Assembly: GCA_016177925.1 (NCBI GenBank) | Contig: JACOUH010000155.1 | Location: 1-38,567 of the forward strand | Direction of reading: 5' to 3' | DNA: 38,567 bases | Source: Planctomycetota bacterium | Lineage (GTDB): Bacteria; Planctomycetota; Planctomycetia; Gemmatales; Gemmataceae | Part shown: piece by piece, positions 918-38,567 of the stretch | Numbering within the stretch: the stretch's first letter is position 1 | Layout: the number at the start of each line of letters is the position of its first letter | Position numbers and translations under genes: made by a program | Notes under the pieces: model-generated | Database searches by the model: none | What the model was told of the DNA's origin: nothing | What the model saw: the letters and a program-made list of their open reading frames with translations, nothing else

Positions 918-3800
918 TCACGGCTTCTTCTCGACCTTCTTCCGCAGGGCGACGACGTCCGCCCAGAGGTTCTGCCACGCCGCCCGCTCCTTCTCGGCCA
1001 GGGCGGGCAGGGCCTTCGCGTCGCGGACGGTGGCCAGGTCGTCATCCGCCAACCAGTGCGACAGTCGTTGCTGCACCATCTGTAGCGCCGCCTTGTCCTC
1101 TTTCTCCGCGAGTTTGGTGTAGGCAGCGAGGTCGGCCCGCAGCCATTCGAGGGCGCGCTGCCGAAGCTTGCTGCGCTGCTCGGCGTTGAGGCCCTTGGCA
1201 TCTTCCCCCTTGCCGGCGGCGGCCAGTGCGGCGGCACAAGCGGCGTTGTAGCGATGCGCAACGTGGAGATCCTCCGCCAGCTTCGGCTCGGCGGCGAACG
1301 CTGCGCTGAAGAAGTTCACGGCTGTGGCATAGTGATGTTTGTACCTGACGCAGAAGTTACCCAGTTCGAGCTGTTCCTGCGCGTTCTGAGGCTTTTCCTT
1401 GTTGGCCAGGATCGCGGTGAGTTTCTTCTCCAGGGCGAGCCAGCGTTCGGCAACGCGCAAGCTGTGGAGGATGCCCGCATGGTTGGGCAACAGATGATCG
1501 GCCTTGCGGAAGGTAGCGACCGCCTCCGCCAGCTTCTTCTGCACAGCCAGGGCGATGCCGAGGCTGCGGTACACCAAGGCGTCATCGGGCCGGAGGTCGA
1601 TGGCCTTGCGGTAGGCGGCCTCCGCCTCGACCGGCCGATTCTGCTCGGCCAGGGCGTTGCCGAGATTGGTGTACGCCTTGGCATAATCGGGCTTGAGTGC
1701 GATGGCCTTGCGGAAGGCTGTCTCCGCCTCCAGCAGTTTCTTCTGCTTGGCCAGGGTGTTGCCGAGGTTGTAGTACGCTCCGGCAAAGTTGGGGTTGAGT
1801 TCGATGGCCTTGCGGAAGGCGGCGACCGCCTCCCCCAACCTCTCCTGGGAAGTCAGGGCGTTGCCGAGGCCGACATACGCCTCGGGAAAAGCGGGCTTGA
1901 GTTCGATCGCTTTGTGGAAGGCGGCGATGGCATCCTTCAGCTTCTTCTTCTCAACCAGGACGTTACCGAGGTTACTGTACGCATGGGCGAAGTCGGGCCG
2001 GAGGTCAATGGCCTTGCGGAAGGCCGCCTCCGCCTCGTCCAGCTTCTGCTGCTTGCGCAGCGCGGTGCCGAGGTTGTTGTGTGGGTCGGCATCGTGGGGC
2101 TGGAGGTCGATGGCCTTGCGGTAGGCTGCAACCGCCTCATCCAACTTCTGTTGGGCTGCCAGGACGTTGCCGAGATAGGCGTGGATCTCGGGATTGTCGG
2201 GTTGCTGGCGTGTGAGATCACGGAGGACTGTTTCCCCCTCTGGGGCCTGATTCGCCTTGATGAAGGCCTTCCCCAGAGCGATCCCAAGTTGCGGTCGCAC
2301 GGCTCGGGCAGCTCGATAGAGCCCGATGGCCGCCTCCAGCCGAGGTGGCTTCTGGTTCTCCAGCAGCCCGCCCAGGGCGGCCAGCAAGATCACTTCGTTG
2401 GGGTGTCTGGCCAGCGCTGCGCGGAGCATCGCTTCGGCGCTGACAGCATCACCGAAGGCATCCAGGGCACGGGCCAGCGACAGCACGATCGGCACCGGTT
2501 GAGTCGCCGGATCGACCTCCCGGGCCAACTTGCGGAGGGCGGTTCGCGTACGCTCCCAGGCCACTGCAGTCGCCGGCGTCCGCTTCATAGGGCTGCTTGC
2601 CAGCAGACGACGCAGCTCCTTGCGGGAGCCGCTTTGGTCCAGCCGCTCCGCCACGTCGATCAACCGCCGCCAGCGGGTTTCTTGAAGGTTTTTGCGCCGG
2701 CGCTCCTGTGTCCACGCATCCAGCCCGGCAACGATTTCCTGCACCACAGGCTCCGGCTGCGTCTCCAGACGGACAAGGAGGTCTTCCACCGAATTGCTGT
2801 CCAGGTTCACCCCCCAGCGGCGGAAGGCCTCGACGAATTGTTCCTCTACGCTGAGATGGGCGAGTTCCATCATCCGGCCGTCCGCGCTCTTCGTGTAGCG
2901 TCTCGTCTCGGGCGGCTCGCTGATGTCGAGCAGCCCGGCCAGCAGGGCACTGTTCTTCTCCGCCGCCCTGATCTTCTCCTCGATTTCATTCCGCAGCGCC
3001 TCGGCTTCTTCCTGGATGTCGAGGCTGGCGTTGCCGCTGCGCGCGACCTCTAACGCCCGAACCGCGGCAGCTTTCGCCTCGACCAATTTCGTCTGGTCGT
3101 GATTCTTCCAACCTTCCTTGAGCAGAGACCGGGCCTGGTCCATCGTGGCACGGATACCCTGCGCCGTGGCGGCGCGCTGTTGCTGCACCAACCACGCCCC
3201 GGTCCCGACGCCGACCACGAGCAGGAGCACCGCGGCGGCCAGCCCGAGCGTGAGGTGACGGGCACGGCGCTCCGCCGCCGCCTTTTTCGTGGCTTCTTCC
3301 GCCCGCGCCTGCGCCGCCACCGCCGTGCGGGCCCGGTCTTCGACGCCGGCCTGGTAGGCCTGGACCGCGGCCCTTACCTCAGCGGCGTCGCGCGGGCGTT
3401 GCTCCAGGTTTGGGGCCAGGCAGTGCTTCGCCAGCGCGATCAGTTCGGCATGGGCGCCGCAGGCATTCAGTCCGGCGAAGGCTTCCGCCAGGTTGCCCAA
3501 CGCTGTCTTCTCCAGGACCTCGGGTCCGTTCGTCCCGGTGAAGGCCGGCCGCCCCGTCAGGATAACACACAGCACCGCTCCCAGGCCGAACACGTCGGCA
3601 CGCTCGTCCACCCGGTCGATCTCACCGCGGGCTTGCTCCGGCGCCATGAATCCCGGCGTCCCGAGGACCCTGCCGGTTTCCGTCCCTGTCGGGGCGAGCG
3701 GGGGGCTCACGCCCTCGGTCGAGTCTTCAACAAGGGGTTCACGCCCCCCCGCTCGCCCGTACCTTGGCAAGTCCCCAGTCCATGACCTGGACCTCGCCAA
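918..3800 (-). CDS. Ser/Thr kinase C-terminal part with membrane segment and TPR repeats (downstream half of a frameshifted gene)
   Basis: This frame continues the kinase that begins at 4620. It opens with the activation segment and C-lobe: GRVLGTPGFMAPEQARGE, DVFGLGAVLCVILTGRPAF and the RPRD region. A juxtamembrane coiled coil follows, then one transmembrane helix (LTLGLAAAVLLLVVGVGTGA) and a long helical region. Then come seven 34-residue TPRs of the YxNLGNxLxxQxKLxEAxxAFRKAIxLxP type, encoded by a visible 102-bp periodicity around 1500-2190. The C-terminus is helical. The only start in this frame is a TTG at 3800 inside the other half's coding region, so it is not a real gene start; the true entry point is the G-run at about 3745-3751. 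In planctomycetes such kinase-TPR fusions are common membrane receptors; targets are unknown. Confidence 0.8.
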   Translation of the reverse strand: MARSRSWTGDLPRYGRAGGREPLVEDSTEGVSPPLAPTGTETGRVLGTPGFMAPEQARGEIDRVDERADVFGLGAVLCVILTGRPAFTGTNGPEVLEKTALGNLAEAFAGLNACGAHAELIALAKHCLAPNLEQRPRDAAEVRAAVQAYQAGVEDRARTAVAAQARAEEATKKAAAERRARHLTLGLAAAVLLLVVGVGTGAWLVQQQRAATAQGIRATMDQARSLLKEGWKNHDQTKLVEAKAAAVRALEVARSGNASLDIQEEAEALRNEIEEKIRAAEKNSALLAGLLDISEPPETRRYTKSADGRMMELAHLSVEEQFVEAFRRWGVNLDSNSVEDLLVRLETQPEPVVQEIVAGLDAWTQERRRKNLQETRWRRLIDVAERLDQSGSRKELRRLLASSPMKRTPATAVAWERTRTALRKLAREVDPATQPVPIVLSLARALDAFGDAVSAEAMLRAALARHPNEVILLAALGGLLENQKPPRLEAAIGLYRAARAVRPQLGIALGKAFIKANQAPEGETVLRDLTRQQPDNPEIHAYLGNVLAAQQKLDEAVAAYRKAIDLQPHDADPHNNLGTALRKQQKLDEAEAAFRKAIDLRPDFAHAYSNLGNVLVEKKKLKDAIAAFHKAIELKPAFPEAYVGLGNALTSQERLGEAVAAFRKAIELNPNFAGAYYNLGNTLAKQKKLLEAETAFRKAIALKPDYAKAYTNLGNALAEQNRPVEAEAAYRKAIDLRPDDALVYRSLGIALAVQKKLAEAVATFRKADHLLPNHAGILHSLRVAERWLALEKKLTAILANKEKPQNAQEQLELGNFCVRYKHHYATAVNFFSAAFAAEPKLAEDLHVAHRYNAACAAALAAAGKGEDAKGLNAEQRSKLRQRALEWLRADLAAYTKLAEKEDKAALQMVQQRLSHWLADDDLATVRDAKALPALAEKERAAWQNLWADVVALRKKVEKKP
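3691..3758. repeat. Dispersed GCGAGCGGGGGG palindrome inside the kinase gene
   Basis: Two inverted arms, each with the core GGGCGAGCGGGGGG followed by a C/G-T-GA-type tail, face each other across about 25 bases. The same arm sequence occurs at 12453-12517 and 32570-32660, so this is a dispersed repeat family. Here it encodes the linker between the DWG motif and the GTPGFMAPEQ segment of the kinase. One arm has a run of seven G/C where the other has six, and the extra base causes the frameshift. Confidence 0.75.
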
Positions 3801-4620
3801 AGGCGCCCACCATGATGTTCTGCGGCTTCAAGTCGCGGTGAATCACGCCTTGGAGGTGCGCGTAACCGACCGCCTGACAGACCTGCCCGAAGATGGCCAC
3901 GAAACGCGGCAGGTCCCTGGACCGCGTCGATCGCTCCTCGAGCAGCTCGTGCAGGGTGCGGCCCTCGATCAGCTTCATCGCCAGGAAAGGACGGCCGTCG
4001 TCGAGTCGGCCAATCTCGTGAACCGGAGGGATGCCGGGGTGCTGCAGGCGGCCGGTGATGCGTGCCTCCGCCACGAACCGACTCTCCGCCTCGGGCCGGT
4101 GGGCCAGCTCGGCCAGCATCACCTTCAGGGCGAGGGGGCGATCGAAAGCCGGGTCGTGGGCGCGGAACACCTCCCCCATGCCGCCCCGGCCCAGCAGTCC
4201 GCGAACCTCGTAGCCCGGCACGACCACCTCGGGAACGGTTGCAGCGACAGGGCCAGGCGTCTCCAGCCCCGCCCCATCTCCTTCCGGCCGGATCGTCTCC
4301 TGGGCCGGGGGTGCTCCCGCAGCGCGAGCGACGCGAAGCACAACTTCCTCGCGAAGGAGGTTCTCGTGACCAGGGAACCGGCTCAGGTAGTCTCCGATAG
4401 CGGGCACGTCGCCCCGTTGGAGGCGCAAGTCCAGCTCGACGCGGAGCAGTTGGCACAGCAGGGCTTCCCGCTCACCCCCTTCCAGATCGCCGAGGAAGTC
4501 CTCGATACGAGGCGCCTGCCCCTCGTTCCAGACGGCCTCGAAGCGCACGCAAACCTCATCAATCCTTTTTGCCGCGGACAGCGACAGGGACTCGCCCTGC
4601 TCGGGATTCGCCGGACTCAT
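3739..4620 (-). CDS. Ser/Thr protein kinase N-terminal part (upstream half of a frameshifted gene)
   Basis: This encodes 293 aa from the ATG at 4620. Residues 1-100 are the helical N-terminal region typical of planctomycete kinases (IEDFLGDLEGGEREALLCQLL). The catalytic domain follows with the glycine loop LLGRGGMGEV (142-151), Lys166 in LALKV, HRDLKPQN (261-268) and DWG (281-283, in place of DFG). Three residues after the DWGLAKVRAS segment the frame hits TGA, while the activation segment and the rest of the kinase continue in the next frame (918-3800). Reading a run of seven G residues at about 3745-3751 as six restores one continuous protein of about 1,230 residues. The break lies inside a palindromic repeat (3691-3758). 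It is either a sequencing/assembly slip or a real inactivating mutation. The ECF sigma gene just upstream (4788) is a usual partner. Confidence 0.85.
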   Translation of the reverse strand: MSPANPEQGESLSLSAAKRIDEVCVRFEAVWNEGQAPRIEDFLGDLEGGEREALLCQLLRVELDLRLQRGDVPAIGDYLSRFPGHENLLREEVVLRVARAAGAPPAQETIRPEGDGAGLETPGPVAATVPEVVVPGYEVRGLLGRGGMGEVFRAHDPAFDRPLALKVMLAELAHRPEAESRFVAEARITGRLQHPGIPPVHEIGRLDDGRPFLAMKLIEGRTLHELLEERSTRSRDLPRFVAIFGQVCQAVGYAHLQGVIHRDLKPQNIMVGAFGEVQVMDWGLAKVRASGGA

Positions 4621-35790: not shown

Positions 35791-36241
35791 GACGGAACCT
35801 CCGCCAGGACGGTGCGTTGGGAATTCGTCCCGAAGCGCCGCGCGTCGCCTGGCTGTCCATGCGGCGCCGGGATAGCCGTGCATCCACGCTACTTCAAACC
35901 GGCCCGCGCAGCAACCCTCGGAGGCCGGAAAGGGGTCAGGAACCGATAACTATCTTTTTTATCGGTTCCTGACCCCTTTCCCGCCCCTTTCCCGCCCACG
36001 GCATTGGCGACCTCCGAGGGCGGGCGACTCCGCCAATGCCAGCGTAAGCGGCCCCGGTCGGCCTGTCCAGCGTCCGGCGGCATCGCTGCTCGGGGCAGGA
36101 TTCAGGGGCTGCTTGCCTGAACCTTTTTTCAGTTAGCGATTGTTCCACCACTCGTCTTGTCTGATAGGCTCGCGTCCGGGCTTGTCGCTCGGGTGACCGG
36201 GAGCCAATAAAGGCGGGAAATCGCGACAACGGAGAATGACA
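35791..36241. other. Intergenic region holding hairpin repeat copy A
   Basis: These 451 bases separate the leftward hicB from the rightward gene at 36242. They contain the repeat at 35929-35998 and, overlapping its end, a second inverted pair GGCATTGGCG / CGCCAATGCC (35999-36042). Some short frames are open, but none looks like a gene. The hicB promoter should lie here. Confidence 0.5.
35929..35998. repeat. GGGGTCAGGAACCGATA hairpin repeat, copy A
   Basis: Arms AAAGGGGTCAGGAACCGATA (35929-35948) and TATCGGTTCCTGACCCCTTT (35960-35979) are perfectly inverted around an 11-base T-rich loop; a CCCGCCCCTTTCCCGCCC tail follows. The same hairpin and tail recur at 37911-38020. Such GGGTCAGG-type repeats in other bacteria are often associated with RAYT/REP elements or small transposons; no transposase gene is in the window. 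Confidence 0.85.
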
Positions 36242-37910: not shown

Positions 37911-38020
37911 GAGAGGGGTCAGGAACCGATAACTATCCAGGAACCGATAACTATCTTTTTTATCGGTTCCTGACCCCTTTCCCGCCCCTTTCCCGCCCCC
38001 CTTTCCCGCCCCCTTTCCGG
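37911..38020. repeat. GGGGTCAGGAACCGATA hairpin repeat, copy B, with an 18-bp internal duplication
   Basis: It has the same arms, loop and CCCGCCCCTTTCCCGCCC tail as copy A. The segment CAGGAACCGATAACTATC is present twice in tandem (37920-37937 and 37938-37955). Both copies have the same orientation, about 1.98 kb apart, and enclose the genes at 36242, 36376 and 36912. Confidence 0.85.
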
Positions 38021-38167
38021 CCCTGAACCCCCGGCGTTCTTGGGCGCCTTCTCGCGGCTGGCCCGCTTCGGAAACCTCCGTAGAATATCAAGTGCGTGTC
38101 CTCATTCTGAGGCACGGGTTCGGAGTGGCGCGGGAAGAAAGCCGGTGCGGTCAGCAAGGAGACAGGG

Positions 38168-38567
38168 ATGAGAACCTTCCTCCTCAGCATGGCTTTCCTT
38201 CTGGCAGGCGGCATTCTCTGTGGGGCCCAGCCACGCCCGACCGAGCAGACGTTGGCCCAGCGGGCGGCGGTCATCAAGCCAGCGCCGGCAGAACTGCGCT
38301 GGCAACAGGTCCCGTGGCTTACGGACCTGGCCGAAGGCCAGCGGCTGGCCCAGGCCGAAAGGCGACCGATCTTTCTCTGGGTCACCGGCGACGACCCGCT
38401 GGAACGCTGCTGAGGCTACGCGGCCGGGCTCCGTGCGGGCCCGTTGTCCGACCCGGCGGTCATTCGCCGCGTCACGAGCCACTTCGTGCCGGTCGCCGTC
38501 AACCTCTACAAGGTGCGGCAGGCGAACGATGCCGGCGGCGAGTTGTTCCGCTCCGTCCAGCGGCAGA
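38168..38567 (+). CDS. Thioredoxin-like exported protein with in-frame UGA, candidate selenoprotein (runs off the right edge)
   Basis: The ATG at 38168 follows AAGGAGACAGGG. A signal peptide (MRTFLLSMAFLLAGGILCGA) leads into ELRWQQVPWLTDLAEGQRLA and RPIFLWVTGDDPLERC. Codon 82 is TGA (38411-38413). The frame then stays open for 51 more codons with clear protein character: GYAAGLRAGPLSDPAVIRRV, TSHFVPVAVNLYKVRQAND and on to the window edge. The layout (strand, active-site turn, helix, SDPAVI, FVPVAVN) matches Thioredoxin_7-like proteins, and the UGA falls where an active-site Cys is expected, right after Cys81. A SECIS-like hairpin follows at 38425-38443. If UGA means selenocysteine, the active site is Cys-Sec. 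Alternatives are a point mutation or sequencing error. Without readthrough only 81 residues are made. Confidence 0.75.
38425..38443 (+). promoter_or_regulatory. SECIS-like RNA hairpin downstream of the UGA codon
   Basis: The stem CGGGC pairs with GCCCG, a single U (38430) bulges on the 5' side, CC pairs with GG, and the apical loop is GUGC (38433-38436). The loop G lies 20 nt after the UGA. Bacterial SECIS elements, as in E. coli fdhF, also have a bulged U and a loop containing GU at a similar distance. Folding was done by eye; GC-rich sequence makes chance hairpins common. Confidence 0.5.

Follow-up and report, generated by a model that had tools for sequence, protein, structure and literature searches.

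A candidate selenocysteine codon in a thioredoxin-fold gene at a planctomycete contig end, and the apparently undescribed protein family to which it belongs

The SECIS element of E. coli fdhF is a short hairpin located right after the UGA, with GU in a small apical loop. New families enter bacterial selenoprotein inventories largely by way of their Cys homologues. For bacterial SECIS (bSECIS) elements, the published constraints include an apical loop of 3-9 nt with G in the first two loop positions, a stem of 4-16 bp, a spacing of 16-37 nt, and a minimum free energy (MFE) of -7.5 kcal/mol or lower (PMC13188914). In the same 2026 inventory, the recognisable thioredoxin-like motifs are UxxC, CxxU, UxC, UGC, and CxU in PF13192 proteins, the families of Haft and Tolstoy (2025) appear with NCBIfam accessions, and planctomycetes are not mentioned (PMC13188914). 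Selenoproteins have been reported in two marine planctomycetes (PMC4807772).

Here we analyzed a stretch of 38,567 nucleotides (hereafter the window), which is the entire contig C213 of the assembly of a Gemmataceae-like planctomycete (83% complete, 484 contigs). Our analysis indicates that an in-frame UGA close to the end of this contig in all likelihood encodes selenocysteine (Sec) in a thioredoxin-fold protein, the insertion itself being deduced from sequence comparison. The gene is a member of a large family, apparently undescribed, of thioredoxin-like proteins of planctomycetes that are predicted to be exported.

Layout of the gene at the contig end

The preliminary description of this DNA reported an 81-codon frame that ends in TGC TGA and is followed by 51 codons in the same frame, and all of these elements are present in the window sequence (Table 1). 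No stop interrupts the 51 codons; the frame is open to position 38566 because the contig stops at 38567, and since the DNA is GC-rich this open stretch weighs little as evidence. The missing 3' half of the gene was searched for in the same assembly and was not found, the only match being a paralogue on contig C207. The N-terminus, MRTFLLSMAFLLAGGILCGA, was judged by its hydrophobicity to be a putative signal peptide, implying that the product would be extracytoplasmic.

Table 1. Coordinates of the gene at the end of the window and of its elements
Feature	Position	Strand	Remark
Shine-Dalgarno-like AAGGAG	38156..38161	+	6 nt upstream of the start codon; from sequence and inference
Predicted selenoprotein gene, 5' part (133 codons)	38168..38567	+	cut by the contig end
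Putative signal peptide, MRTFLLSMAFLLAGGILCGA	38168..38227	+	from sequence; relatives have similar hydrophobic N-termini
TGC, Cys81, putative vicinal partner of Sec	38408..38410	+	Cys at -1 or -2 in 73/74 UGA members
TGA, predicted Sec82	38411..38413	+	one alignment column in all UGA members aligned
Candidate SECIS hairpin	38425..38443	+	7-bp stem 38425-38431/38437-38443, loop CGUGC 38432-38436
CGT, Arg89, codon +7 after the UGA	38432..38434	+	holds the loop GU

Two further features of the window should be mentioned. A palindromic repeat, AGGAACCGATAA...TTATCGGTTCCT, is found at two intergenic places (35938-35970 and 37921-37971), with 5 half-sites against 0.07 expected, and repeats of the CCCTTTCCCGCC type adjoin the palindrome at the second place. 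On the minus strand, a serine/threonine kinase frame is apparently split by a frameshift at 3739-3800, where a single kinase domain runs on from one ORF into the other (3739-4620 and 918-3800) with a change of frame.

Homologues, the UGA column and the selenocysteine machinery

With the read-through protein as query, matches were obtained in 68 of 95 genomes of the same family. Among the 150 matches listed, 120 have exactly one in-frame stop and 30 have none, and every one of these stops is TGA, never TAA or TAG. A profile search across 392 genomes of the phylum showed a like distribution of in-frame TGA among its strong hits. Three paralogues, each with one TGA, are encoded in the window's own genome, and the closest relative (L017/L020) is a full-length protein of 402 amino acids with 66% identity over the shared part and the same TGC TGA. 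In the alignment of the retrieved members, every TGA falls in a single column.

This distribution bears on the alternative of a lesion, which the preliminary description had raised. In that case an ordinary thioredoxin-like gene would have been inactivated by mutation or misread in sequencing, and the frame after the TGA would be a pseudogene remnant. Planctomycete MAGs are fragmented and the same assembly has other apparent lesions, such as the kinase frameshift near 3740-3800, both of which would favor such a proposal; against it are the TGA at the same column in independent genomes, the homologue lists without TAA or TAG, and the constraint on synonymous sites in the codons 3' of the TGA (see below). 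Because the TGA is common to independent genomes, a lesion can be regarded as already refuted, and we consider it highly improbable.

At the column of the UGA, homologues have UGA and sometimes Cys (L037 and L122), as anticipated for a Sec position, and the remaining members have Asp, Ser, Gly, or Arg. The expectation that nothing other than Cys or Sec would occur here thus failed in a minority of homologues that are scattered over the tree, and these are better read as losses than as a refutation of Sec. The tree requires at least nine changes between Sec and non-Sec states, the scatter of the non-Sec rows being as expected from repeated loss. Given Asp, Ser, Gly, or Arg in some homologues, neither the fold nor the role of those copies strictly depends on Sec or Cys at this position. 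Asp or Gly occupies the Sec position in L053, L054, L055, L117, L118, and L120, and several of the genomes concerned also encode Sec forms; perhaps these Asp/Gly copies have lost the redox function.

The family is amplified in some genomes. Thirteen members with TGA are encoded in genome G061. Seven tandem paralogues share a contig (L052, G061:C62, 3202-13643), each with one in-frame TGA at the same column, and the others lie on different contigs. Elsewhere, family domains lie in or beside very long open frames of 1261 to 1998 amino acids (L112, G255:C321; L125, G308:C88; L124, G374:C244); at the column of the UGA, some of these have Sec and one has Asp.

The genes for Sec synthesis and insertion, whose presence in the genome had been proposed as a check, were all found there. 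ARAGORN identified two tRNA-Sec genes with a UCA anticodon (Rfam family scores of 73 and 70 bits), contig C393 has selB (391 bits) and, directly after it, selA (578 bits), and selD (369 bits) has an in-frame UGA of its own within ASCAG-U-AGK. The presence of tRNA-Sec, selA, selB, and selD means that the organism is very probably able to make and insert selenocysteine. It should be noted that the two tRNA-Sec genes (L001 and L002, on contigs C322 and C15 of G000) differ from each other, which could be due to a real duplication or to mixed strains in one assembly.

The same observations bear on a change of the genetic code by which UGA would be a sense codon, for Trp or Gly, in this organism. 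Read-through of TGA in many genes of the family is what such a change would produce; nevertheless, TGA is the ordinary terminator at 27 of the 56 ends of the very same genes, which argues against a changed code, as do the column itself, with no Trp and no consistent Gly among the homologues, and the presence of tRNA-Sec and of a SECIS hairpin. We consider a code change extremely improbable, even more so than a lesion.

The TGA forms are also associated with selB. Among near-complete genomes of the family (completeness of 90% or more and contamination of 5% or less, selB being counted over the curated cut-off and the tally made by hand), TGA forms are present in 43 of 61 with selB and in 0 of 5 without it (Fisher p=0.004). 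In six other genomes, which are incomplete (65-88%), TGA forms are present and no selB exceeds the cut-off, presumably due to missing contigs.

The hairpin downstream of the UGA

A hairpin with a bulged U and a GUGC loop had previously been placed at 38425-38443. The hairpin at this location was confirmed, with the stem CGGGCUC/GGGCCCG and a 5-nt loop, CGUGC, that begins 18 nt after the UGA; the bulged U and the GUGC loop correspond to an alternative fold, in this subfamily, and the conserved register pairs that U with G. The published bSECIS constraints are satisfied, the loop having 5 nt and GU at its positions 2 and 3, the stem 7 bp, the spacing 18 nt, and the predicted energy being -12.4 kcal/mol. 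The hairpin resembles the SECIS of E. coli fdhF and the bSECIS consensus (PMC13188914) in being short, in its apical GU, and in the 18-nt spacing to the loop, and differs from fdhF-type SECIS in that the bulged U is not conserved across the family. In single-sequence folding, the window hairpin is no more stable than expected by chance (z -1.5; its stability was reached by 21 of 200 shuffles) and this analysis was therefore left out as evidence. An Rfam scan of the window gave no match.

The hairpin was also compared among relatives, where it covaries. The family has two main subfamilies, PLERC-U-GYAAGLRAGPL (CU, including the gene of the window) and HPLGC[TV]-U-NNGV..R (CxU), and both have a 6-bp stem with the loop CGUGN at the same distance from the UGA and wholly different stem sequences (for example, GGGCUC/GGGCCC, GUGGGC/GCUCAC, GUCGAC/GUCGAC, and GCGGUC/GACCGC). 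In 57 distinct sequences from across the phylum, selected by the sole criterion of CGN at codon +7, stem pairing reaches 90.1% compared with 61.1% in shuffles, and the covariation score is 0.743 compared with 0.185 in shuffles (0/500), all six pairs having changed on both sides. Sliding the stem register by one to three bases lowers pairing to 45% or less. A shifted register is required in a few, distant members (L050, L051, L056, L052_3, and L052_7).

The codons that form the hairpin are constrained as well. When synonymous codons were redrawn in the 34 sequences with CGT in the loop, pairing dropped from 0.98 to 0.765 +/- 0.021. At codon +7, 70 of 74 members encode Arg, by CGT in 51 of these 70 and never by CGC, the commonest Arg codon; CGT accounts for 11.6% of the other Arg codons of the same genes (p about 1e-32, relatedness among the sequences being ignored). 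What places the Sec82 observation far above chance is thus the set of relatives and not the single sequence of the window.

Downstream hairpins are able to stimulate UGA readthrough, which raises the question of a programmed, selenium-free readthrough in which a near-cognate tRNA would insert Trp, Arg, or Cys, or in which two products would be made, a short exported peptide and the read-through protein. The 81-codon product would end in Cys, a point in favor of such readthrough. The full Sec machinery in the same genomes, the restriction of TGA forms to genomes with selB among the near-complete members of the family, the loop GU and spacing that fit the bSECIS constraints, and the Cys that replaces U in some homologues all point away from readthrough of this kind, which we consider very unlikely. 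The assignment of the UGA to Sec82, as originally proposed, is thus supported by the machinery, by UGA or Cys at the same column in homologues, and by a covarying, bSECIS-compliant hairpin. Under this assignment, the hairpin just 3' of the UGA would recruit SelB with Sec-tRNA-Sec, and the UGA would then be read as selenocysteine and not as a stop.

Predicted fold, active site and relation to described families

A profile of 26 members matched PDB 3ira (DUF255; E 2.5e-7), with weaker matches to 7tkv, AGR3, and a DsbD-like domain. When the N-terminal domain of L017 was modelled (pLDDT 74, pTM 0.75), the model gave structural matches to 3f9u (Z 11.7), 7tkv (Z 11.6), and 3ira (Z 11.1), and falls with the branch of DsbH, DUF255, DsbD, AGR2, and ERp18 (Z 11.7 to 10). 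By both profile and model, the N-terminal domain is a predicted thioredoxin fold of the DsbH/DUF255/DsbD branch. A full-length structure prediction from two sequences reached a pLDDT of 36 and was discarded. The C-terminal region, of roughly 220 residues, is conserved in relatives and lies outside the cut gene of the window; its comparison with Pfam, NCBIfam, and PDB sequences gave no convincing match. This family-specific domain may set the substrate or the partner.

Both the profile alignment and an alignment with L018 place Sec at the first Cys of the CxxC motif. All 74 UGA members have G, A, or V where the second Cys of the motif would be (+3), the gene of the window having Ala, so that the UGA members lack the second Cys of a canonical CxxC or UxxC. 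Instead, 73 of these 74 members have a Cys directly before Sec (CU) or two residues before it (CxU). Sec82 would therefore stand at the nucleophilic first-Cys place of the thioredoxin CxxC, Cys81 would become the resolving partner on the opposite side of the nucleophile from the lost second Cys, and the two residues would probably form a selenenylsulfide during the cycle. We consider such a redox mechanism of Cys81 and Sec82 moderately likely. Taking into account the predicted export, the thioredoxin fold, the Sec nucleophile, and the nearby Cys, the simplest reading and the most likely role is a reaction of the thiol/disulfide or peroxide reductase type outside the cytoplasm.

It is also conceivable that the protein is a selenoprotein in which the Cys-Sec pair binds a metal, a metalloid, or a sulfur species and is no thiol/disulfide redox center; the handling of selenium, mercury, or copper would be examples. 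The canonical second Cys is missing, and the CU motifs of the 2026 inventory are found in the metal-related families HgcA, SaoL, and MbdU (PMC13188914), which makes metal or metalloid handling a serious alternative. Against binding, Sec lies precisely at the nucleophile position of a thioredoxin fold, and we consider this alternative rather unlikely.

As regards previous descriptions, no UGA member scored above the cut-off of any Pfam or NCBIfam (release 20) family, including the curated selenoprotein families, and none of the 119 prokaryotic families of the 2026 inventory is recognisable as the Sec82 family (PMC13188914). A literature search for selenoproteins in Gemmataceae gave no match. 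Judged by the listed motifs, the active-site layout of Sec82 is absent from the thioredoxin-like motifs recognised in the inventory (PMC13188914). Single members may have had earlier notice among the selenoproteins reported in the two marine planctomycetes (PMC4807772). It is likely that these genes form a phylum-wide superfamily of exported planctomycete selenoproteins, mostly with Sec and with up to 13 copies per genome, in which a Sec nucleophile has its partner Cys on the other side (CU/CxU). If so, the rarity of Cys forms would explain why searches for Cys/Sec pairs overlooked the family. Since the family is mostly Sec, extends across one phylum, is unnamed in Pfam and NCBIfam, and is amplified within genomes, its genes have probably been annotated as encoding truncated proteins. 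The family would add a large selenoprotein group to a phylum absent from the 2026 review, and its vicinal Cys-Sec pair, set in a thioredoxin fold, is open to biochemistry.

Among described systems, AGR2/AGR3 and ERp18 (TXNDC12) share the thioredoxin-fold branch (Z 10.2-11.1) and, unlike the Sec82 family, are eukaryotic ER proteins without Sec. NF041383 (Trx_VPGUxxT type 2 (seleno)protein) and NF041199 (Trx7/PDZ (seleno)protein) are likewise thioredoxin-like bacterial selenoprotein families, with the motifs VPGU and CxxU, whereas the Sec82 family has CU or CxU with the second Cys lost and scores far below their curated cut-offs (NF041383 weakly matched one member, E 0.0025). The N-terminal domain has a sub-threshold profile likeness to Thioredoxin_7 (PF13899), from which the family differs in lacking CxxC, and all UGA members scanned stay below the gathering score. 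Finally, Thioredox_DsbH/DUF255 (PF03190; PDB 3ira, 7tkv, and 2ju5) resembles the family in fold and profile, with Sec on the first Cys of CxxC; in comparison, the Sec82 family scores below the Pfam cut-off, lacks the second Cys, and has an extra Cys at -1 or -2, a putative signal peptide, and a different C-terminal domain.
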